Source: a virus
Virus record (IMG/VR): IMGVR_UViG_3300027777_000023
Span: 62,001 to 126,000 of that record
Strand: one strand, 5' to 3'
DNA: 64,000 nt
Under the pieces are notes generated by a model that was given only the letters and a program-made list of their open reading frames with translations, was not told the DNA's origin and searched no databases. Within the stretch, counting starts at the first letter, position 1. Every line of letters starts with the position of its first letter. Positions 630 through 53,928 of this stretch are shown in pieces. The translations under genes and the position numbers were made by a program.

Positions 630-1153
630 CCATAACAGCTGAAGAGTTTACACGCGTATACAAAAGGTATTACCGTGTTCTCTTAAAAAATACTACCAGA
701 CAGCTGAACAATCCAGACGAAGCTGCGGATGTTGTGCAGGACGTGTTTAAGGCATTGTTAAATCACCCAGACTACAGCAAACTTGAAAAAAATATTATGG
801 GCTGGCTCACAACCTGCTGCAAAAACAAATGCTCCAATCTTGTGCATCGAGCAAAAACAAAAGCTAGATGCGCCAGTGCTCTTATGCGCGGATTAAACGT
901 TTTTGCAGAAGAACCCAACCCGTTCGAGTACGCCTGTTTGCAGGAGCGAAACAATGAGTTACTGGAGACTATGGCTGACCTGAGCACTGCACAAGCAAAT
1001 GGGCTGCGTATGTATTATTTCAAACACATGACATATGAAGCCATCAGTGCGCAAACCAGAAAAAGCATAACAGCCGTGAGCACCCTACTAGAACGAGCAC
1101 GCAAAAAAATGAAGGTAAGACTGAAGGCACAAATACATGAGTTCCAATATTAA
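626..1153 (+). CDS. ECF-like sigma-70 family RNA polymerase sigma factor
   Basis: A 175-residue protein built like an extracytoplasmic-function sigma factor. Region 2 is near residues 10-50, with DEAADVVQDVFKALL matching the core-binding helix. Region 4 is near residues 125-170, with YYFKHMTYEAIS followed by LLERARKKMK, a helix-turn-helix for the -35 region. It would redirect host RNA polymerase to phage promoters. I chose the ATG at 626 because it overlaps the helicase stop by four bases; an upstream in-frame ATG at 575 lies inside the helicase gene. Its target promoters are unknown; the repeated promoter-like sequences at 40.9-47.4 kb are candidates. Confidence 0.82.
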   Translation: MTITAEEFTRVYKRYYRVLLKNTTRQLNNPDEAADVVQDVFKALLNHPDYSKLEKNIMGWLTTCCKNKCSNLVHRAKTKARCASALMRGLNVFAEEPNPFEYACLQERNNELLETMADLSTAQANGLRMYYFKHMTYEAISAQTRKSITAVSTLLERARKKMKVRLKAQIHEFQY

Positions 1154-3857
1154 ATTAAAGATAGCTACACCTGTGGCTGAAGGATGTAAACCCGAGTTAC
1201 TCATCATATTCAGTCATCCAAACAAAGAAGACCTAGAGGCTAGAAAATTTGGTGTGGCCGGCTTTGCTACAACAGAAGTAAAGGCTGGACTAGCTGCTGC
1301 AGGTATACCCCTAGAAAAAGTGCATTTTACCGCTATGGTAAAGCACGGAATAGGCAGCAAAAGCAAGCCAAGTGCAGAAGACATTGAAGAGTTTGCACAA
1401 GAACTAGATAACGAGATAGAACAGATCAAGCCAAAGCTGATCATGCCTTTGGGTGCAGAGGTGTTTAAAAGGATAATGAAAGCTAACACAAAGATGGGCG
1501 ACTATCTTGGTGAGATCATTGATACCTCATACGGCAAAGCACTAGCAAACTACTCGCCAGGTATGATTGTAGCTATGGACCCTACAAAGCGTCCAGAGTT
1601 TAGAGATGTGTTTCTTCTCGCAAAGCGCGCACTAGACAACAATCTGAACTATGATAAATATCGATATATATTGGTAGATGATCCTGAAGTAAATAAAGCG
1701 ATACTTGAGAAGTATATCGAGCAGGAGAAATTTGACATTGGTTATGACGCTGAATGGTATACGGAGACCAAGTGGACAGATGATGAGGTAATGTATGAGT
1801 TTCAGTATAGTTGTGAAAAAGATGTAGCAATCATACTGAATATTAGTAAAGACGGCGTATCAGAGAATCGTGAGTTACTGGATACGATGAAGCTATTGCT
1901 AGAGCACCCAAAAGCTCGGCGTATGGGTTGGAATATCCGTGTGGACGATCTTCGACTTAGGCACAGAGGATTCGACCTACCAGACGAGACGCTGGCTTTC
2001 GACGGCATGAAGGCTGTCGCATTCTTTGACTCGCGCTTGTCGAAAGGTCTCGAGACAGGGATCAAGATGTTTACTAATTATGAGCCATACTATACAGCCT
2101 TAAACAGAAAGCTGAAAGAGCACAAGCTCAGTAAGAGTGAGATGAGCAAGCTCAAGTTTCTAGAACCTGAGGTCTACTATCATTACTGTGCTGGTGACGC
2201 AGTAAGTCACAGAGAAGCCTGCTTGCAAATGATGCACGCGTTCCCTGAGAATCTAAAAGACCATTACTATAAGACATATCTGCCACTGACTCACTATCTC
2301 ACAGATATGGAGTTCACGGGTATACCTATCGATAAAAATGTGCTAGCAGACATTACCGATAAGTACACAGTCAAGTATGAAGAGCTAAAACAGGAGCTGA
2401 TAGTGTTCTTGCGCGATCGCTTTGGTATTGAAGATTTTAATCCCAACAGCGCACCGCAAAAAAAGAGTCTTTTATTCGAGACTCTTCAGGTCACACCAGC
2501 CTACTACACGAAAAGCGGCAAGTCTCCTAAAGCAAAAGCATGGTATGACAAACAAAAACCTCAAACGCAGAAGCTGTATGAGCCGAGCACAAACTCAAAG
2601 TCAGTATCGACAATAAAGTTCCAGCTAGAGGAGCTTATAGAAAAGGATAAAACAGAGCTACCTGAGAACCGGAGAAATCCTGAACCTCTGGAGGCTGCAC
2701 ACAAAGCACTAGGTCTATTACTTTCAGTAAGTCGCCTAGGTGTGTTTGCGACAAAGTTTCTGAGTAGAAAGGGTGTTGCCATTGATCCTGAGAGTGAACT
2801 CGATGATGAGGATGAACCGCTCAAACAAAGCTACTGGGCAGCGATCAGTAATGATGGTAGAGTACATGCAAGCTTCTTTGAGTGTCTCAAGAACTTTAGG
2901 GCCAGTAGTAGTCCGAACGTACAGAATCCTGCTTCAAAGGTTTTGGTACACATCCCAGATATTTTTGTTCCTGGATACAACAAACTAGACAAAGATCAGC
3001 AAAAAGAGGTAGAGCACCTGCTACCAAAAAACATCAGAAACATATTCTATTCAGGCGATCCTGACTATTACTTTGTTGAGAGTGACGTGCTAGGCGCAGA
3101 TATTTATATCATGGCTCTGTTGTCCGGCGACCCAGACTTTATTCAAGATTTTCGACAGGGTGGTTTTCACCAAACGAAAATGCGTGAATATTTTCAGGAT
3201 CCTGCGCTCACAAAAAAAGATGTGTCAAAGTATACTATATCAAAAGGTATTACTTTTCGTGTAAGTTATACTGCCGGATTAAAATTTGCTGCGGTACCTA
3301 TTCAGGCTGACATCTATGCCGAGAGCGGTCTCAGTGTGAAGCTAAGCACTATCGACTATGCACTAGGAACCTGGAATAGGTATAAAAGCTACATGGCGTT
3401 CAGGGACAGGTGTACCTCAGAGGTGCAGGAAAAGCAGCAAATCACCAACGCCAGAGGACAAATATTGAAGTATGAGGAAACAGATAATTTTGGTATTCTT
3501 GCTGGCTGGATGAATGAGAGTCTCGCCTATCCTGTGGCGAGCGAGCTTGCAAACTATATGTGGGATGCATCAGTGAATCTAAAGAAACTCCTCAAAAAGG
3601 AAGGACTTTGGATGCGTTATATATATCCCGTAAACACTGTGCACGATGCAGGATATTGGATTGTACACAAAGACCTATGTAAAGATAACTATATCGCAGA
3701 GGTGATCAAATACGCCATGTGTCATCAGACGAAAATTGCTACCGGAGACAATGTTGGCTGCGAAATCGTAGTATCAGATTGTTGGAAAGGTAAGAAAATA
3801 TTCGAGAAGGAAACAATGTGGTCTTTTGATCAGAAACAATGGATTTGGAAAGAATAG
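1137..3857 (+). CDS. Family A DNA polymerase with N-terminal UDG-like domain and 3'-5' exonuclease
   Basis: A replicative polymerase of 906 residues. Residues 1-170 resemble a uracil-DNA glycosylase fold (IMPLGAEVFK, then YSPGMIVAMDP), as in the SPO1-type phage polymerases. A DnaQ-like exonuclease follows at about 195-360 (DIGYDAEW, GWNIRVDDL, YCAGDAVSH). The polymerase domain fills the rest. Motif A reads SDVLGADIYIMALLSGDPD, the O-helix region KGITFRVSYTAG, and motif C TVHDAGYWIV, where HD is the usual metal-binding pair. The start overlaps the sigma factor by 17 bases, so the two are co-transcribed. Whether the UDG-like domain is catalytic cannot be told by eye. Confidence 0.9.
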   Translation: MSSNIKLKIATPVAEGCKPELLIIFSHPNKEDLEARKFGVAGFATTEVKAGLAAAGIPLEKVHFTAMVKHGIGSKSKPSAEDIEEFAQELDNEIEQIKPKLIMPLGAEVFKRIMKANTKMGDYLGEIIDTSYGKALANYSPGMIVAMDPTKRPEFRDVFLLAKRALDNNLNYDKYRYILVDDPEVNKAILEKYIEQEKFDIGYDAEWYTETKWTDDEVMYEFQYSCEKDVAIILNISKDGVSENRELLDTMKLLLEHPKARRMGWNIRVDDLRLRHRGFDLPDETLAFDGMKAVAFFDSRLSKGLETGIKMFTNYEPYYTALNRKLKEHKLSKSEMSKLKFLEPEVYYHYCAGDAVSHREACLQMMHAFPENLKDHYYKTYLPLTHYLTDMEFTGIPIDKNVLADITDKYTVKYEELKQELIVFLRDRFGIEDFNPNSAPQKKSLLFETLQVTPAYYTKSGKSPKAKAWYDKQKPQTQKLYEPSTNSKSVSTIKFQLEELIEKDKTELPENRRNPEPLEAAHKALGLLLSVSRLGVFATKFLSRKGVAIDPESELDDEDEPLKQSYWAAISNDGRVHASFFECLKNFRASSSPNVQNPASKVLVHIPDIFVPGYNKLDKDQQKEVEHLLPKNIRNIFYSGDPDYYFVESDVLGADIYIMALLSGDPDFIQDFRQGGFHQTKMREYFQDPALTKKDVSKYTISKGITFRVSYTAGLKFAAVPIQADIYAESGLSVKLSTIDYALGTWNRYKSYMAFRDRCTSEVQEKQQITNARGQILKYEETDNFGILAGWMNESLAYPVASELANYMWDASVNLKKLLKKEGLWMRYIYPVNTVHDAGYWIVHKDLCKDNYIAEVIKYAMCHQTKIATGDNVGCEIVVSDCWKGKKIFEKETMWSFDQKQWIWKE

Positions 3858-3858
3858 T

Positions 3859-4365
3859 ATGAGGACAGTCAGAGTATCAAATAAATATGACGTAAAAATA
3901 GATGAAGAAGATTACGAGAAGTTCTCTCCTGAGAAGTATACCTGGAATGTTCAGTTAAGGCGTGGTGGGCAAATCTATCGTGTGAGAGCAAATTACCGGA
4001 AAGCTCAGCAGGTAAAAGGTGGGAAGCATGCATTACTTCACAGATTGATTATGGGCGTCACCAACCCGAAAGTCGTAGTGGACCATATTAACCATGACCC
4101 GTTGGATAATCGAAAAGCTAATCTTAGGCTTTGCACATCAGCAGAAAACACGAGAAATTCTCGAACCTCAAAAAGCAAATCAGGCCTCAAGGGGGTACGA
4201 TTAAAACGCAAAAAATGGGAAGCGCGTATCACACACAACAAAAAACAAATATACATTGGTGCATTTGCAACACCACAAGCAGCAGCAGAGGCCTATGACA
4301 AAAAGGCAATAGAGTTGTTCGGGGAGTTTGCCTGCACTAATAAGATGTTAGGTAGACTAGAATGA
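3859..4365 (+). CDS. HNH endonuclease with AP2 DNA-binding domain
   Basis: A 168-residue homing-type endonuclease. The HNH core is near residues 60-105 (LLHRLIMG, VVDHINHDPLDNRKANLRLCT), followed by an AP2-like domain (GLKGVRLKRKKWEARI, then IYIGAFATPQAAAEAYDKKA). Such genes are mobile and often sit between essential replication genes. This one lies two bases after the polymerase stop and overlaps the next gene by four bases. The ATG at 3859 is preferred over one at 3826 that lies inside the polymerase gene. No intron is seen in the neighbouring polymerase. Confidence 0.88.
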   Translation: MRTVRVSNKYDVKIDEEDYEKFSPEKYTWNVQLRRGGQIYRVRANYRKAQQVKGGKHALLHRLIMGVTNPKVVVDHINHDPLDNRKANLRLCTSAENTRNSRTSKSKSGLKGVRLKRKKWEARITHNKKQIYIGAFATPQAAAEAYDKKAIELFGEFACTNKMLGRLE

Positions 4366-5081: not shown

Positions 5082-5141
5082 AAATAAGTGTTCCCCCAGG
5101 AACAAAAGTAGAGTAAAATTAAACTAATAAAACAACACAAT

Positions 5142-5471
5142 ATGACCACTGAAAACAACAACTCCGCAGAAATCATCAACACAGCAGCAACAATCGCAAC
5201 TAACATGAACAAGTACACAGTAGAAATCGCAGACAACACCGGACACAGCACTTTCGCAGATCTCGACATCGAGACGGCGACCGAAAACATTCTCGCTAAT
5301 GCTGAGAAGAAAGCTCATTGGGTTTACATCAACGGCGAAAAGTTTGAGTTTGAAGGTAGCAATCATCGCAGCAAGGCAAACGTGCAAAAGCTTCAGCAGC
5401 AGCTGCAGGCTGTGGAAGATCCTAATATTCTTCTCACCGGCGTGCTTCGCGGCGGCGCAGCGCAGGAATAG
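5142..5471 (+). CDS. Candidate ubiquitin-like modifier with C-terminal RGG and short tail
   Basis: A 109-residue protein that I read as a ubiquitin-like (beta-grasp) modifier. A flexible leader of about 22 residues precedes strand KYTVEIAD, strand STFADLD, a helix around ETATENILANAEKKAH, strand WVYINGEKFEF and a last segment NILLTGVLRGGAAQE. The end resembles the ubiquitin tail LVLRLRGG, but with four extra residues after Gly104-Gly105 that a protease would have to remove. A JAMM protease and an E1 enzyme lie 2.3-3.3 kb downstream, which supports the reading. It has its own A-rich leader and is followed by a terminator, so it may be made at higher level than its partners. An internal ATG at 5205 is an alternative start. 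The fold is inferred from pattern only. Confidence 0.6.
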   Translation: MTTENNNSAEIINTAATIATNMNKYTVEIADNTGHSTFADLDIETATENILANAEKKAHWVYINGEKFEFEGSNHRSKANVQKLQQQLQAVEDPNILLTGVLRGGAAQE

Positions 5472-5538
5472 TTCTCATTCACCAGGCGTGAAAAGAGCAA
5501 CGGGTTCGTTCTAGTCTAGAGCGCGCCCAGCAAAACTA

Positions 5539-5571
5539 GCCCCTAGGGATTAACCTCTCTAGGGGCTTTTT
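5539..5571 (+). terminator. Rho-independent terminator after the Ubl gene
   Basis: GCCCCTAG pairs with CTAGGGGC at 5559-5566, an 8 bp perfect stem followed directly by TTTTT. It ends the operon that starts with the helicase and separates the Ubl gene from the 726-codon gene. Confidence 0.88.
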
Positions 5572-5590
5572 ATTTATATTTATTCTCTAT

Positions 5591-7771
5591 ATGAACTTTA
5601 ATTTACCTACATTTAAAAAAATCACAAAAGAGTTTGCAGAAGCAGCAAAACACGTAAAAAGCGCAGACGTCTCACTTGAAGTGAACAGACGACGCTATAA
5701 TGGTTGGGCAACGCCCGCAGCAGCCGCTGAAGAAGAGTACACATTAGCTTTGATGGATCTGCGGTTTAAGAACATCGATGCAATGTATCGGTACTGCAAG
5801 CACAAGAGTATTCCTCTCGACGGTTTGAATTGCGAGACATCAGCGTCTTTTGTTTTGAGTATATGTTCGCAGACTGTGCATGAAAGAAATCTTTGCCAGA
5901 TTTCCAGTGAGGACGCCAAAGAGTTTAAGTCGCTGAAATTACTGCCAGATAACACACCGCTTGAGCATCGACCCGTTCTGATAAAACGTACTCCATCAGA
6001 GACTACAGTAGGAAACTATACCTATCGTTTTTTAACAGGCTCAAAGAATAGTTGGAGCAGCAGCATCGATATTATTGGTCGGAATGATGAGCCATTGTAT
6101 GACTATCTGGACAAGGGGTTTTATGTTAAGTCTCTGGTTATCGCTAAAGGTACTACGAAGACGAATAGGGTTATTGTGTCGGACGTCTACGACGTAAATA
6201 CTGCGCATGTATTTGCTATGTGCAGCATCCATCCAATCCTAGCAGATATGCTCAGGCAAGGGAGCTTTATCAGCAGCTATGATGCAGAAATGCTTCGATT
6301 AAAGATGCTGAAAAAGATGCCTGAAGGTAAGAAGAAAGATTACCTGAAGGTCGCTGCAGCTATCGACACAGACTATCGCAACAATACAACATTGATTGTG
6401 GTGGGTAAGTTGATAGCTGGTGAGGCAGATAAAACCACAATCAACAATGTCACGTTCACAAAGAACTCTGCAACGTATGAAAATGTGAGCATTGAAGCTG
6501 AGGGGTTGCTTGATCTGGTGTACAGTTCAACTTCGTTCAACTTCAACAGTGAGTTCGATATCTATACTATTGTTGACCTGTATGGCAAGCACATCAGAGG
6601 TACACTAAAGCAGGATAAAGAGCCTGTGGAGACAAAGGCCGAAGGTGGACTAATTCTTGATGAGCATGTTGCTGAGTTGGAAGATCCACTGGCTGATGAG
6701 GAAGAAGACAATACTAAGAAGAAGCAGATGCCTGCATTCAAGGTGAACGGTATTGAGATCACACCCAGCATTAGCACTACCGGGCAACGCTATCTTAATG
6801 ACGTACGCATCAACAAGGAAGAAATAGATCAGGCCATCTATAGGGCAAGTTGCCACAAGACAGCGCATGACTATAAACTATTCCTGAAGTCAATCAGCCG
6901 TATGAGTATCAAATATCATGATATTATTGCGAACGGGTTGAAGGTAAAGATTCATGACTCGATGACACGGGACGAGATGCAAACTGTGGAACCTGGCCCA
7001 GCAGCCCCTGCACTCAAGTTCCATGTAGATCCAGCGGACAAGTATATCAAGATCTCTGTCACAGACGATCGCGGTGTACGAGTGAGCCTTGGCAGGCTTA
7101 TCGGTAAAATCAGGAACATCAATAAGAAAGCAAACGGTAAGCAGTATTACGATAAAGGCGCATATCACCCAAAATGGCGGAATCATGAATGGGCTCGTGA
7201 AATGCTGATCACTGCCTTGGTTGAATCCTGTACGTTTAAGACAAAAGTGTCTGAGACAGTTGTTGACGATCAAGGGGCTGAACAGATCAAAACTTCTGAG
7301 AGAACAGATGTATTGATTACCAGGGAAGACATCGTGGCCCTGATGGGTGTTGTTAATGAGCGCAAGAAAGCTGCTTTGGAAAGGTCCAAGCAATTTCTTG
7401 AAACAGCTGTAAAGATCACAGGAGCAGAACAGATCACGTTCATGGACAAGCCTGCATACAAGGTCAAGGGATCCTTGAGAGAATATGCTGTAGTTATTGA
7501 AACAGCAAAAGTGTACGACTATGAAACAAAACAGTATCGCTGTATTGTAAACAGTCAGCACTATGCAGGCACAGGCTATGACGACATCGCTGCAAGGTTG
7601 TTGGCACTGAAAAACGACAGCATGATGCAAAATGAGATTGGCACACTAGCAGGTGCAGCGCAGCCTGCTGCAGAGAACATACATAACGACTATGCGCCGT
7701 TGCGTGAAGTAGCTGTAAACCTAGAAGAAGTTGCATACAGCAAAGCAATCGAAAAAGCACTAGCGAGTTAA
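5591..7771 (+). CDS. Large protein of unknown function in the ubiquitin-like module
   Basis: A 726-residue soluble protein with no signal peptide or membrane segment. I do not recognise a family. An acidic linker (ELEDPLADEEEDN) near residue 365 splits it into two parts. Cysteines are sparse; those in YRASCHKTAHD, VESCTFKT and QYRCIV are the only ones that might be active in the C-terminal half. It lies between the candidate Ubl and the JAMM protease, with its stop three bases before the protease start, so it belongs to the same operon as the protease and E1. It could be the main target, a conjugation factor or an unrelated replication protein. Confidence 0.75.
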   Translation: MNFNLPTFKKITKEFAEAAKHVKSADVSLEVNRRRYNGWATPAAAAEEEYTLALMDLRFKNIDAMYRYCKHKSIPLDGLNCETSASFVLSICSQTVHERNLCQISSEDAKEFKSLKLLPDNTPLEHRPVLIKRTPSETTVGNYTYRFLTGSKNSWSSSIDIIGRNDEPLYDYLDKGFYVKSLVIAKGTTKTNRVIVSDVYDVNTAHVFAMCSIHPILADMLRQGSFISSYDAEMLRLKMLKKMPEGKKKDYLKVAAAIDTDYRNNTTLIVVGKLIAGEADKTTINNVTFTKNSATYENVSIEAEGLLDLVYSSTSFNFNSEFDIYTIVDLYGKHIRGTLKQDKEPVETKAEGGLILDEHVAELEDPLADEEEDNTKKKQMPAFKVNGIEITPSISTTGQRYLNDVRINKEEIDQAIYRASCHKTAHDYKLFLKSISRMSIKYHDIIANGLKVKIHDSMTRDEMQTVEPGPAAPALKFHVDPADKYIKISVTDDRGVRVSLGRLIGKIRNINKKANGKQYYDKGAYHPKWRNHEWAREMLITALVESCTFKTKVSETVVDDQGAEQIKTSERTDVLITREDIVALMGVVNERKKAALERSKQFLETAVKITGAEQITFMDKPAYKVKGSLREYAVVIETAKVYDYETKQYRCIVNSQHYAGTGYDDIAARLLALKNDSMMQNEIGTLAGAAQPAAENIHNDYAPLREVAVNLEEVAYSKAIEKALAS

Positions 7772-7773
7772 CC

Positions 7774-8199
7774 ATGAATTACATGAGCAAGGCCCTTGCC
7801 TCTGAGCTGCTTAAAGCTTCAGAGATCTGCAAGCATCGTGTAGAGGAAGAAGGCGGACTCATTCTCAATCGTGATGATGAGTTCGTCTTCGTTCCTGTAC
7901 AAAACATATACAAGGGAACACCAACAGCAGCCGGATTGTATGAGACAGAACAATCTGACTTTACTGGCAAGGTGTTCCCTTTGTTGAAGGAGGGCTATAA
8001 GTTCTATGCGAGCTTTCATACCCATCCTTCATTCAGTCCTAACCCTAGCGGACTAGACCTAAACGTCTTGTTCCAGGGATTTAAACATAACTACATCTAC
8101 GCACCAAGACCCGAAACCTTCAGCTATACAACCTGGGGAGTTGAGGACTCACAATTCACACAATACTTCAATCGTAACACACTATATGCCGTTCAATAA
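7774..8199 (+). CDS. JAB/MPN (JAMM) metalloprotease
   Basis: A 141-residue protein that is essentially one JAB/MPN domain, the zinc peptidase fold of deubiquitinases. The JAMM residues are in place: a glutamate in EEEGGLIL (Glu25 or Glu26), His82-Thr-His84, seven residues, Ser92, two residues and Asp95 (FHTHPSF...SGLD). Such enzymes trim or remove ubiquitin-like proteins; here the four residues after the Ubl Gly-Gly are an obvious candidate substrate. No NlpC/P60 domain is attached, unlike the tail-assembly JAB proteins of lambda-type phages. The E1 gene starts inside its last codons (14-base overlap), so the two are coupled. A second ATG at 7783 is possible. Confidence 0.9.
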   Translation: MNYMSKALASELLKASEICKHRVEEEGGLILNRDDEFVFVPVQNIYKGTPTAAGLYETEQSDFTGKVFPLLKEGYKFYASFHTHPSFSPNPSGLDLNVLFQGFKHNYIYAPRPETFSYTTWGVEDSQFTQYFNRNTLYAVQ

Positions 8200-8791
8200 A
8201 ATCGCAATCGTCGGAGCAGGCGGAATCGGAAGCAACCTGCTAGCAATCTTGTTTGACTATGGCTTCAATCGCAAGCAGTTCGACTATGCTAGTCTAGATA
8301 TTGATATTTGGGATAATGATGATGTATCAATCTCGAATCTTCTCCACCAGAACTTCAAGCTTGATGACATCGGTAAGTACAAGGTAGAAGTATTAGAAGA
8401 CAAGTATGCCGTTAATGGTGTCAAGAAGCGCATGACTGAGAAAGAGTTTAAAAAGTACGATCTCATATTCAGTTGTGTTGACAGTATGACGTTCCGTAAG
8501 GCATTGTATGAATATGGCTGGAAGAATGACTGGGCAAAGAGCAAAGACAAGTTCTGGATTGACGGTAGGTGCACAAGCAGGCAAGGTGCATTGTTTAATT
8601 CAGAGCTTCCCAAAGATCAATTGTTGCCCTACATTGATGACTCGGTGGAAGAAGGCGGCTGCTTGCTAGCATATGAGAAAGAACAAAATATTAGTCATAC
8701 GTTGCCAACAATTGTAGCAGGTATGATGGTGCAGACGTTCCTCAACAAGCTCAGAGGACAAAGAACGTTTAAAATGATCTTTATGGTCTAA
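8186..8791 (+). CDS. E1/ThiF-like ubiquitin-activating enzyme
   Basis: A compact 201-residue E1/ThiF-type adenylating enzyme. The nucleotide loop is IAIVGAGGIGSN near residue 5. The metal and ATP segment is DIWDNDDVSISNLLHQNF, close to the usual DxDxVxxSNLxRQ but with His for Arg. GKYKVEVL supplies the expected lysine, and CVDS is the following aspartate. A cysteine in EEGGCLLAYE is a possible thioester residue. The protein is short for the family and has no separate catalytic-cysteine or Ub-fold domain. I chose the ATG at 8186, inside the end of the JAMM gene, because the Rossmann strand begins there. It would adenylate the C-terminal Gly of a Ubl. Confidence 0.9.
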   Translation: MPFNKIAIVGAGGIGSNLLAILFDYGFNRKQFDYASLDIDIWDNDDVSISNLLHQNFKLDDIGKYKVEVLEDKYAVNGVKKRMTEKEFKKYDLIFSCVDSMTFRKALYEYGWKNDWAKSKDKFWIDGRCTSRQGALFNSELPKDQLLPYIDDSVEEGGCLLAYEKEQNISHTLPTIVAGMMVQTFLNKLRGQRTFKMIFMV

Positions 8792-49586: not shown

Positions 49587-50951
49587 ATGAGCGACTGCGG
49601 CAATCATTCTAATTCCTTTCACACGCGTCGAGAATTTCTTACAGACTTTGGAGCAGGACTTGGTGGGTTATCTCTCGCTGCATTATTTAACATAGATTCA
49701 GCTACAGCAGAAGCTGCATCACCGTTAATAGCAAAACCGTCTCATTTCCCAGTAAAAGCAAAAGCTATTATTCAGTTGTTTGCGAGTGGGGCCCCGTCCA
49801 GTGTTGATACATTTGACTATAAACCCGAACTTCAAAAGAATGATGGAGTAGAGATTGGCAATGGAAGGTTATTGGGTTCTCCTTTTAATTTTCCAAAATT
49901 TGGAAAATCGGGCTTAGAAATTTCTGAAGTGTGGTCTAAACTAGGGCAGCATGCAGATGATATGGCAATCATCAATTCTATGTTTGCAGAGATACCTGAT
50001 CATGGTATTGCAGCAAAGATGTTTAATACAGGTTCTGCTCAACTACCTAAACCAAGTCTTGGTAGTTGGATGGTATACGGTCTTGGTTCTTTAAATCAGA
50101 ATATGCCTGGATTTATTTCATTAAACGGAAACGCTGATTGGAGACAATGTGCGTTTCTTCCAGGGATGTATCAAGGATGCAACGTGCAGTATCGATCTAC
50201 AATCAAAGCTGAAGAAATTTTAGCAAATATTCGCAGTGAGTTTTCTACTCAAGAGCGTCAACGCCGTCAGATTGATTTTGCAAAAGTATTAAATGCCAAT
50301 CATATGGCTCAATTGCAGAGAGATGTTCAACTTGAATCTCGTATTGAAGCGTTTGAAACAGCGTTTAAGATGCAGACAGAAGCTACTGATGCGTTTGACA
50401 TTAAGAAAGAACCTCAAGCTATACATGAGCTGTATGGTGCAGGTGAGGAGGCAGCAAAGATGATTGTTGCACGCAGACTAGTTGAAAGAGGGGTTCGTTT
50501 TGTTCAAGTGCAGGTTGGTGGGTATGATCATCATACAGACATTAAGGGCAGCATGACAAGAACAGCTGAAAGATACGACAAACCATTCTCTGCTCTATTA
50601 ACTGATCTTAAACAAAAGGGGTTGCTTGAATCCACTCTTGTTATTTGGGGTGGTGAGTTTGGTAGAACCGTGACAGCAGGAGGAGGTGCAGGTTTACCAG
50701 GCAGAGACCACAACGGTAAAGCATTCTCTGTCTGGATGGCTGGGGGCGGTGTCAAGGGTGGTCAGCGTTACGGTGAAACAGATGAAACAGGCGGTAAAGT
50801 GGTTAAAGACGCGGTACACATGCACGACTTCCATGCTACTATATTAGCTTTAATGGGATTTGATCACACCAAACTGACTTATAACTACAATGGTAGAGAT
50901 TTTCGTCTAACAGATAACTTTGGTAATGTAATTAAAGATATTATTGCGTAA
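49587..50951 (+). CDS. DUF1501 family protein with Tat signal
   Basis: 454 residues, full length for the family. The N-terminus carries a twin-arginine signal (HTRREFLTDFGAGLGGLSLA). The body matches DUF1501: IIQLFASGAPSSVDTFDYKP, SMFAEIPDHG, GGYDHHTD, LVIWGGEFGRT and GRDHNGKAFSVWMAGGG, a fold related to sulfatase/alkaline phosphatase. In Planctomycetota and Verrucomicrobiota such genes pair with PSCyt/DUF1549/DUF1553 genes, as here. The substrate is unknown. Confidence 0.92.
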   Translation: MSDCGNHSNSFHTRREFLTDFGAGLGGLSLAALFNIDSATAEAASPLIAKPSHFPVKAKAIIQLFASGAPSSVDTFDYKPELQKNDGVEIGNGRLLGSPFNFPKFGKSGLEISEVWSKLGQHADDMAIINSMFAEIPDHGIAAKMFNTGSAQLPKPSLGSWMVYGLGSLNQNMPGFISLNGNADWRQCAFLPGMYQGCNVQYRSTIKAEEILANIRSEFSTQERQRRQIDFAKVLNANHMAQLQRDVQLESRIEAFETAFKMQTEATDAFDIKKEPQAIHELYGAGEEAAKMIVARRLVERGVRFVQVQVGGYDHHTDIKGSMTRTAERYDKPFSALLTDLKQKGLLESTLVIWGGEFGRTVTAGGGAGLPGRDHNGKAFSVWMAGGGVKGGQRYGETDETGGKVVKDAVHMHDFHATILALMGFDHTKLTYNYNGRDFRLTDNFGNVIKDIIA

Positions 50952-50955
50952 TCAT

Positions 50956-53928
50956 ATGAAAAAAAGTTTGGTTTTTCTTGCGTTGTTTACCGCATCCTGC
51001 AGTAATATCTTTGCAAAACAAGACTTTACATCTGAACAGTTAGATTTTTTTGAAGCAAAAGTACGACCGCTTTTAAACGAGAAGTGTTTAGAATGTCATT
51101 CTAATGAAAAAGGAAAAGTTAAAGGTGGGCTTTCTTTAGACTCGAGACAAGAGATTCTCAAGGGAGGTGAAAATGGAGATGTCTTTAATAAAGACAGTGT
51201 ATCAAAGAGCTCTTTGCTAAAAGCCATTAACTGGAACGGTGACCTTCAAATGCCGGAAAAAAAGAAACTCTCTGACGAACAGATATCTATTTTTACACAA
51301 TGGTTTGAGATGGGTATTCCCGACACAAGACAGGTGGGAGATAAAGCTTTTAAAAACACTAAGAAAAAAAATTATTGGTCTTTTCAGCCTGTTGTTAAGC
51401 CTAAGATACCTTTAGTAAAAAATGAGAGTTGGTGCTACAACACTGTTGATAGATTTGTATTAGCTAAACTTGAAGACAAAAAAATTATACCAGCTGTAAC
51501 GGCACGTAAAGAAACTTTAATCCGTAGAGCTTATTTTGATCTCATAGGTATACCTCCAACACCCAGACAAACAGCAGAGTTTGTTGTAGATGAATCAAGC
51601 AATGCATTTGAAAAGGTTGTTGATAAACTATTGGCTGACCCTGGATATGGAGAGCGTTGGGGTAGACATTGGCTTGATACTGCCAGATATTCAGATACAA
51701 CAGGCGAGCCTAATAATAATGTTAAAGATTATAGATATTCTTATGCTTGGTCTTATAGGGATTGGGTTATTAATTCATTTAATAATGACATGCCCTATGA
51801 TCAATTCTTAAAGAATCAATTGGCGGCCGATAAAATACCAAATAATAATGTTGCCAATCTAGCGGCATTAGGTTTTCTGACTATAGGTCAGAGATTCAAT
51901 AATATGGATGATGTTATCAATGACCGTATCGATGTTGTTGGTAGAGGTATGCTGGGGCTAACACTAGCGTGCGCCCGTTGTCACGACCATAAATTTGACC
52001 CAATTACTTCAGAAGATTACTATGCGTTACGAGGTATATTTTTAAGCTGTAATGAGCCAAGTGAAGGACCTATTATTGCGGGCGATTCAAATTCTCCTAA
52101 GTATATCGAATTCACTAATAAGATGAAAGAATATGAACAAAAGTCTTATCAAGCTTATTATACTATAGTGAGAGAACATGGAAATAAAATCAGAAAGAAC
52201 GCCCAAGCTATGGCTGAGTTTATAATGGTTCTTGGGAAAAACCCTACCGTTGAACAAAGAGAAAAAGCATCTGAAATTGCTAAGAAAAATAAGTTGGATG
52301 AACGAGAAATTGCAGACAATTTTGGCAGAAAATTTAAACCAAATGATCCGTTGCTTGGGCCGTTTGCAAAAATGCATAACGATAAACTTACTATTGAAGA
52401 AGTGATAAACGACAAAAAACAAAAACTCTCTCCTGTAGTTTTTGAATTTTTAAAGAAGCAACAAACATCCCCAACAACTGATATAGAAATTGCAAGATTA
52501 GTTGGCAGTTTTTTTGAAGAAATTGAAACAAAGGCAGCTTCGGTTTTTGCTCAAATAATGAACCCTGAAACAAAATTAGAAGACGCTAATTTCAATAAAG
52601 ATCTAGCAGATGTAATTGTTTTCCCGTTTGAGTTAAATTTAATGTCAGATCTTTCAATAGAGAAGCTTAAACAAATTGCTGAGAAATTTCCCATGCAACA
52701 ACAAGGTGAATTAAGAAACAAAGCTTTTTTAAATCAAATTAATGAATTAAAGTTAACTTTTAAAGGCGGTCCAGTAAGAGCAATGATTATTGAAGATAAG
52801 CCTAAACCTGTAGACTCACCACTGTTTGTTAGAGGTAATGCACCAAAGGCTGGAGAAAAAATAAAAATAGTGCCAAGAAAGTTTATTGAAGTTTTAAACA
52901 CTAACAACCTATCTGAATTTAGTAAGAGTGAAAGTGGCCGCTTAGAACTAGCAGAAGCTGTTGCAAGTAAAAATAACCCTCTTACGGCTCGAGTGATAGT
53001 AAATAGAGTGTGGATGTATCATTTTGGAGAAGGATTAGTGAGAACACCGGATGACTTAGGCAATCAATCAGGTATACCAACCCACCCTGAACTGTTAGAC
53101 TTTCTTGCTAATTGGTTTATGGAAGATTATGGGGCAAAGAAACCAGCCTGGTCGTTGAAAGCTTTACATAAAGCGATAATGCTCTCAAAGACATATCAGC
53201 AAAGTAGCAACACCATTTCTAAAATTCAATTAGATGAATATAGCAAGTTAGACCCGGGTAATAGCCTACTCTGGCATGCTAATGTACGTAGATTGGATTT
53301 TGAATCTTACAGAGATTCGTTGTTGAGTATGGGTAAAGTACTACAGAGAGATGTTGTAGGTGGGCCTTCTTTTAATGTACTTGAAGAGCCTTTTATATTT
53401 AGACGAACAGCATATGCGTATATAGACAGAGCAAATATGCCTGATGTAATGATGCAGTTTGATATGTCAAACCCAACTGAGCCAAACACGAAGAGAACCA
53501 GCACCATTGTACCGCAGCAAGCATTGTTTTTAATGAATAGCCCGCTTGTCGCAAACATCGTACAAAACATCTCACACAGACAGGAAATGGTGGATGCTAT
53601 TAAACTTGAAAAAAATACTGATAAAGGTATTATAACCGCATTTAGAATTGTATTACAACGAACACCAACGCTTTCTGAACGAACGTTTGCGTTAAACTTC
53701 TTATTAAAAGAAAGTAAAGAGCAAGAAAATGTAAAAACTGCTATGAATCCTCTAGCTAAAGAAGCTCAGAAAAAGGCTGAAGATAAATACAAACAAGCTC
53801 TAAACAATAATAATTCTCGTAAAGCCATTGTAAACGAAGGCCAGGTAACAGAGCGTGCCGCTTTTTCACCATGGGAAGTTTTAATACAATCTTTAATATT
53901 TACAAATGAAGCAGCGTATGTAAATTAA
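50956..53928 (+). CDS. PSCyt1-DUF1549-DUF1553 (planctomycete-type cytochrome) protein
   Basis: 990 residues from the ATG at 50956. A signal peptide (LVFLALFTASCSNIFA, possibly lipidated) is followed by PSCyt1 with a heme-binding CLECH. Then comes DUF1549/PSCyt2 (RRAYFDLIGIPPTPRQ, WGRHWLDTARYSDT, CARCHDHKFDPITSEDYYAL, a second CxxCH), and the C-terminal DUF1553 domain (NPLTARVIVNRVWMYHFGEGLV; TSTIVPQQALFLMNSPLV). It is an exported c-type cytochrome-like protein of unknown substrate, typical of PVC bacteria. It follows the DUF1501 gene directly and ends one base before the next phage-type gene. It is AT-rich in the middle: one sampled line is 32 percent G+C. Confidence 0.93.
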   Translation: MKKSLVFLALFTASCSNIFAKQDFTSEQLDFFEAKVRPLLNEKCLECHSNEKGKVKGGLSLDSRQEILKGGENGDVFNKDSVSKSSLLKAINWNGDLQMPEKKKLSDEQISIFTQWFEMGIPDTRQVGDKAFKNTKKKNYWSFQPVVKPKIPLVKNESWCYNTVDRFVLAKLEDKKIIPAVTARKETLIRRAYFDLIGIPPTPRQTAEFVVDESSNAFEKVVDKLLADPGYGERWGRHWLDTARYSDTTGEPNNNVKDYRYSYAWSYRDWVINSFNNDMPYDQFLKNQLAADKIPNNNVANLAALGFLTIGQRFNNMDDVINDRIDVVGRGMLGLTLACARCHDHKFDPITSEDYYALRGIFLSCNEPSEGPIIAGDSNSPKYIEFTNKMKEYEQKSYQAYYTIVREHGNKIRKNAQAMAEFIMVLGKNPTVEQREKASEIAKKNKLDEREIADNFGRKFKPNDPLLGPFAKMHNDKLTIEEVINDKKQKLSPVVFEFLKKQQTSPTTDIEIARLVGSFFEEIETKAASVFAQIMNPETKLEDANFNKDLADVIVFPFELNLMSDLSIEKLKQIAEKFPMQQQGELRNKAFLNQINELKLTFKGGPVRAMIIEDKPKPVDSPLFVRGNAPKAGEKIKIVPRKFIEVLNTNNLSEFSKSESGRLELAEAVASKNNPLTARVIVNRVWMYHFGEGLVRTPDDLGNQSGIPTHPELLDFLANWFMEDYGAKKPAWSLKALHKAIMLSKTYQQSSNTISKIQLDEYSKLDPGNSLLWHANVRRLDFESYRDSLLSMGKVLQRDVVGGPSFNVLEEPFIFRRTAYAYIDRANMPDVMMQFDMSNPTEPNTKRTSTIVPQQALFLMNSPLVANIVQNISHRQEMVDAIKLEKNTDKGIITAFRIVLQRTPTLSERTFALNFLLKESKEQENVKTAMNPLAKEAQKKAEDKYKQALNNNNSRKAIVNEGQVTERAAFSPWEVLIQSLIFTNEAAYVN

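Follow-up and report, generated by a model that had tools for sequence, protein, structure and literature searches.

Genes for a ubiquitin-like protein, a JAB protease and an E1-type enzyme form a conserved phage cassette that may encode a reversible conjugation system

The stretch of DNA analysed here (the window, 64,000 nucleotides) comprises bases 62001-126000 of a 189,602-base virus record, IMGVR_UViG_3300027777_000023, of the IMG/VR database. Four consecutive genes on its + strand form one cassette. They encode a candidate ubiquitin-like modifier (UBL), a protein of 726 amino acids (P726), a JAB/JAMM metalloprotease (JAB) and an E1/ThiF-type activating enzyme (E1). Single-protein scans for close relatives gave few matches, and the family was recovered by profile scans of viral contigs, which added 27 records to that of the window. 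The order UBL-P726-JAB-E1 was kept in 25 of the 28 related contigs, and the remaining three (G006, G014, G022) end within the cassette. Because all four genes stand in the same order in 25 records and the other three contigs end inside them, the arrangement is not due to chance. An earlier note on this DNA had named a ubiquitin-like candidate, a JAMM protease and an E1/ThiF enzyme near the replication region. All of these genes were confirmed, and the replication context was borne out as well, although "near" was too weak a word. In nearly all loci the cassette lies inside the replication genes, with DnaB, PolA and GP88 on one side and a 344-amino-acid protein and RecA on the other. The 344-amino-acid protein was left without a name because its PHROG match to single-stranded DNA-binding protein was negligible (E 0.43).

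UBL (109 amino acids; 5142..5471, + strand) had no family match above cut-off. The AlphaFold2 model, made from a 23-sequence alignment, has the topology b-b-a-b-b-a-b with a floppy C-terminal tail, and predicts a beta-grasp fold with moderate confidence (mean predicted local distance difference test score, pLDDT, 67.5; approximately 73-83 in the core, about residues 24-105). Nearly all Foldseek neighbours of the model in the PDB were ubiquitin/beta-grasp proteins, among them PB1, SUMO, NEDD8, ISG15 and UBX; the best E value was 0.006, single scores being modest and the agreement among the matches strong. In the window phage the protein ends in ...LTGVLRGGAAQE, with Gly104-Gly105 encoded at 5451-5456 and followed by the tail AAQE. 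The C-terminal motif of the family is L[T/S]GxxxGG plus 0-9 variable residues, and the Gly-Gly was invariant in 23 of 23 aligned relatives. G34, H35, W60, F70, L84, L88 and G100 were likewise invariant in the 23 sequences. Both the beta-grasp fold and the conserved Gly-Gly that the earlier note had proposed to look for were thus found in the model and the alignment. The LRGG ending reported there applies to the window phage, whereas the position of its Arg varies in relatives (V, M, I or R). In L135, L139, L146 and L147 UBL stops exactly at Gly-Gly. The UBL of the most distant member, G026 (117 amino acids, at the expected position, E 7e-5), has the variant motif IVGRVIGG and terminates exactly at Gly-Gly.

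JAB (7774..8199, + strand) matched Prok-JAB over the Pfam cut-off (E 2.8e-7), and AfJAMM was among its PDB matches. The H-x-H-x7-S-x2-D motif, described as complete in the earlier note, is present as H82-x-H84-x7-S92-x2-D95 together with E24/E25 (H82 codon at 8017), and E24, E25, H82, H84, S92 and D95 were invariant in 24/24 sequences. It had also been suggested that this enzyme matures the UBL tail. The AAQE tail could be its substrate, but the tail is not the main reason for the presence of JAB, since JAB is retained in the four phages named above, where UBL already stops at Gly-Gly. Its retention where there is no tail to remove points to a role in deconjugation, not just in maturation.

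E1 (201 amino acids; 8186..8791, + strand) matched ThiF with an E value of 5e-20. Its start was placed at ATG 8186, where the E1 of the relatives begins; the mechanically called open reading frame (ORF) had started further upstream, at TTG 8141. The overlap of the JAB and E1 genes, noticed earlier, is therefore 14 nucleotides. E1 retains the GxGGxG glycine loop, which reads GAGGVSG in G026, as well as D43, N51, Q55, K66 and D99. Cys159 (codon at 8660) was invariant in 21/21 sequences including that of G026, where the other conserved cysteine, C129, is lost. C159 aligns with the SCS Cys of the ThiF protein of plasmid PRTRC cassettes and with a Cys of the ThiF proteins of crAss-like phage and phage Arash, and is the putative acceptor cysteine. 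No CxxC zinc site was found in E1. In one relative (G007; L134 9298-10472) the E1 gene is interrupted, beside the ATP-site motif, at DDDTV|DVKNLLHQ by an insert of ~1.18 kb. The insert contains a 312-amino-acid ORF with two LAGLIDADG-like motifs, and joining the flanks restores the E1 frame. A U precedes and a G terminates it, in the fashion of group I introns, and it had no Rfam match.

In its model, P726 (5591..7771, + strand) has two parts with a disordered linker between them (residues 343-374); the mean pLDDT was 80. No family match above cut-off was obtained, and a weak match of the C-terminal part to DUF7737 recurred in all members (best E 0.0016). C421 and C651 were invariant in 24/24 sequences, and identity fell to 28% in G026. 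Among viral models, three unnamed proteins of 416-452 amino acids resemble the P726 model (Foldseek probability 1.00). The protein occupies the position held in plasmid PRTRC cassettes by F and the E2-like B. Pairwise-identity correlations among P726, JAB and E1 were high (r 0.93, 0.84 and 0.85; P726-JAB 0.93, P726-E1 0.84), while those of P726 or JAB with PolA, RecA and the 344-amino-acid protein were 0.55-0.66 (P726-PolA 0.55, P726-RecA 0.65). The suggestion in the earlier note that the 726-residue protein may take part is supported by gene order, by this co-divergence with JAB and E1 and by the PRTRC-like position. In G027 (L148 8216-10275) P726 is split into two overlapping frames, by a frameshift or an assembly error. 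In about half of the relatives (L130, L133, L134, L141-L147) P726 and JAB are separated by an ORF of 190-230 codons, whose L002/L130 copy resembled, by eye only, a 3'-5' exonuclease.

Two hairpins frame the UBL gene. The 5' element, TGTTCCCCCAGGAACA (5089..5104, + strand; RNA fold z -3.9), lies 37 nucleotides ahead of the UBL start and was found nowhere else in the window. Its commonest form among relatives is TGTTCCCCCCAGAACA, and the exact 14-mer core occurred once per genome, always just 5' of UBL, in 9/18 records. Directly 3' of UBL there is an intrinsic-terminator-like element (5538..5575, + strand) with its hairpin at 5538-5567 (-21.8 kcal/mol, z -4.9). Each of the 23 loci compared has a strong hairpin here; the stems differ in sequence, a U-rich tract usually follows, and the stem is bulged in two of the loci. 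Third-position G+C content was higher in UBL than in P726 in 22/22 loci. Taken together, the two hairpins and the higher third-position G+C suggest that UBL is regulated and dosed separately, above its enzymes.

Purifying selection on the cassette genes was evident from the mean pairwise identities of their products (E1 71%, UBL 49%, JAB 47%, P726 46%). No relatives of UBL, P726 or JAB were found in 50,697 phage records, where distant ThiF homologues were the sole E1-side matches in named phages. Two pattern-based scans of 84,980 bacterial and archaeal species gave no relatives of E1 or P726. Because no bacterial, archaeal or named-phage relatives were found apart from the distant ThiF homologues, the cassette is assigned to an uncultured phage lineage, where it appears to be core. 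No published description of such a phage cassette was found in open-access papers. This is weak evidence of novelty, and the cassette may be a variant not previously described among prokaryotic Ubl-E1-JAB systems.

From gene content and order, conservation, active-site residues, the predicted fold and the hairpins we infer conjugation, its chemical steps and targets, and any anti-defence role. The interpretation that we favour, and consider reasonably probable, is that the cassette is a dedicated, reversible ubiquitin-like conjugation system that forms part of the phage's replication module. A short transcript covering UBL alone and stopping at the hairpin would make the tag more abundant than the enzymes. 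JAB, as its motif suggests, would trim the UBL tail, where present, and expose Gly-Gly. E1, to judge from its conserved residues, would adenylate the Gly-Gly end and take UBL onto Cys159 as a thioester. UBL would then pass to lysines of target proteins with P726 as an E2/E3-like carrier or target-selecting scaffold, and JAB would also take the tag off again. The targets would most plausibly be phage replication or recombination proteins, or host replication or defence proteins. Since the cassette is fixed among replication genes, replication proteins are the first candidates. Small proteasome homologues are carried by phages (PMC8665760). Degradation of tagged proteins by a phage-encoded proteasome is not favoured, because no proteasome-family protein was found in the 11 records searched, although host enzymes might act instead.

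Several observations weigh against conjugation. No E2 or E3 was recognisable, as the earlier note had already remarked; neither Prok-E2_B nor Prok-E2_D was detected in 11 records. Adenylation by E1 is not assured, because the canonical Arg of NxxRQ is replaced by His (NLLHQ) in every member having this region. The replacement could mean altered or lost activity, although the other ATP-site residues are all kept and His is also able to contact phosphate. P726 matched no PDB fold, and hhalign detected no homology of its halves to PRTRC B or F or to the crAss and Arash partner proteins (probability under 1%). Since it has no detectable similarity to PRTRC F or B, the E2/E3-like role proposed for it is positional and comes from synteny alone. 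The mirror-tree values are only suggestive because E1 co-diverges strongly with RecA too (r 0.88). The confidence of the UBL model, finally, is modest. A more specific proposal, which we regard as doubtful, is that P726 represents a new class of Ubl-transfer enzyme, E2 and E3 in one, using C421 and/or C651, with which the phage would reversibly tag its own replication and recombination proteins; this would amount to a complete ubiquitin-like pathway, encoded by a virus, that regulates a viral replisome in bacteria.

An alternative is that UBL, once adenylated by E1, acts as a sulfur carrier of the ThiS/MoaD type, its thiocarboxylate giving sulfur to a nucleotide, a tRNA or a cofactor, with P726 as the sulfur-using enzyme. 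Sulfur systems also combine a ThiF-type E1 with a beta-grasp partner and JAB processing (Iyer 2006, PMC1779556), and PAPS-reductase genes lie close to some plasmid PRTRC cassettes. However, no phage-encoded PAPS-reductase-family protein or rhodanese was found in the 11 large records, in which the positive controls worked, and it is because such sulfur-transfer enzymes are missing there that sulfur transfer is not favoured, although host enzymes might supply them. The retention of JAB where UBL needs no processing and the lack of a CxxC zinc site in E1 also argue against it, and we consider it unlikely.

The set might instead interfere with conjugation by Bil, Bub or type II CBASS systems of the host, acting as a decoy tag, a competing E1 or a deconjugase. 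Host systems do deploy E1, E2 and JAB proteins against phages (PMC10097602; PMC11354881), and a JAB could deconjugate by itself. A decoy, however, would need less than a complete UBL/E1/JAB set, and the cassette is a core feature of the entire family, fixed among replication genes and not part of a variable anti-defence island. PADLOC gave only generic JAB and E1-E2 domain hits, and counter-defence seems quite improbable. Least probable of all is a non-covalent or assembly function, with UBL as a beta-grasp subunit of structural or regulatory type, or with the set aiding tail assembly in the manner of lambda TAPI/TAPK. A weak PHROG match of JAB to a tail protein (E 0.0028) and the pairing of Ub-like TAPI with JAB in lambda-type phages (PMC1779556) fit such a role, but they are outweighed by the polA-recA location in nearly all relatives, an E1 with a conserved Cys and the Gly-Gly conserved at an exposed UBL C-terminus.

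To our knowledge, bacterial ubiquitin-like conjugation has so far been known chiefly as a host weapon against phages. If the cassette is indeed a conjugation system, phages run this chemistry themselves, probably around DNA replication, and would tag proteins in infected cells in a manner resembling that of eukaryotes. P726 would then be a candidate for a new type of ligase. With only four genes the system is small enough for direct reconstitution.

Other features of the window and of related searches were recorded. A DNA polymerase A with an N-terminal uracil-DNA-glycosylase-like fusion is encoded at 1137-3857, and an HNH/AP2 homing-endonuclease-like gene at 3826-4365 lies between polA and GP88, as in two relatives. 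The gene at 50944-53928 encodes a 994-amino-acid protein with PSCyt1, PSCyt2 (DUF1549) and PSD1 (DUF1553) domains, an architecture of planctomycete cellular type. It was not present in 10 other records checked, and could be a clue to the host, an acquired gene or a sign of a chimeric assembly. On a Lysinibacillus plasmid (L151 6983-9767) a ThiF-family gene overlaps dnaX, an E1-like gene thus again standing beside replication genes.

The cassette was compared with known systems that combine similar proteins. The tail-assembly pair TAPI/TAPK of lambda likewise consists of a phage Ub-like protein and a JAB, but lacks an E1, stands in a tail context and has its JAB fused to NlpC (PMC1779556). Membership was rejected, as the cassette has neither tail-gene neighbours nor an NlpC domain or partner. 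In CBASS, Cap2 and Cap3 are an E1 and a JAB acting on a C-terminal Gly in reversible conjugation (PMC10097602). The phage set shares both enzymes and the C-terminal Gly, but the tag of CBASS is the cGAS protein itself, whereas here a separate beta-grasp protein would play that part, and the cassette contains no nucleotidyltransferase. Bil and Bub systems also have a Ubl with a JAB-processed C-terminal Gly, an E1 and a JAB; there are two Ubl domains in BilA, BilB can be recognised as an E2, and BilD is a pseudodimer E1 (PMC11354881). The phage-borne set, in contrast, has one Ubl domain, no recognisable E2 and a single-domain E1 of 201 amino acids. Membership in Bil, Bub or CBASS was rejected on the lack of a recognisable E2 in the 11 records and on PADLOC hits confined to the generic E1 part.

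A JAB directly before a ThiF gene is also carried by crAss-like phage cr85_1, within the replication region, and by Salmonella phage Arash, but no homologous UBL or P726 was found and the E1s share 24-27% identity. In cr85_1 (L152 4664-8289) an unknown 371-amino-acid protein and a weak JAB match accompany a ThiF with NxxGQ for NxxRQ, a second phage lineage departing from the E1 arginine. In the cultured phage Arash (OQ632216.1, L153 1519-4539) three consecutive genes annotated as 'structural' or hypothetical resemble Prok-E2_D, JAB and ThiF, an apparent E2-JAB-E1 set whose first gene is E2-like (hhalign 72% to PRTRC B).

Plasmid PRTRC cassettes have the order E-C(Ub)-F-B(E2)-A(JAB)-ThiF, the full set being ParB, E, C (Prok_Ub), F (alpha-hel2), B (Prok-E2_D), A (JAB) and ThiF. 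Their E1 is clearly related to that of the phage (hhalign 99.3%; best NCBIfam match E 1e-14) and shares the SCS-type Cys. They run from Ub through middle proteins to JAB and E1, paralleling UBL-P726-JAB-E1, and they too reside on mobile replicons, adjoining replication or partition genes. However, the phage E1 scored 54.3 bits against a family cut-off of 144.75 and has NxxHQ in place of NxxRQ. UBL matched neither Prok_Ub nor PRTRC_C/E, and P726 neither B nor F, while a plasmid PRTRC set used as positive control matched C, F and B. There is no neighbouring ParB. UBL has a Gly-Gly terminus; the PRTRC C proteins examined either finish with just one Gly or are extended. Membership was rejected on the ThiF score under the cut-off and the lack of Prok_Ub, Prok-E2_D, alpha-hel2 and ParB. 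Archaeal sampylation (SAMP/UbaA/HvJAMM1) also has a small Gly-Gly modifier, a single E1, a JAMM protease and no evident E2; its E1 is more distant (UbaA model E 0.016), and the phage-borne set adds the conserved P726. As judged from the sequences, the cassette resembles a pared-down ubiquitin-type system and is closest to archaeal sampylation by its parts list, and to PRTRC by its E1 and gene order.

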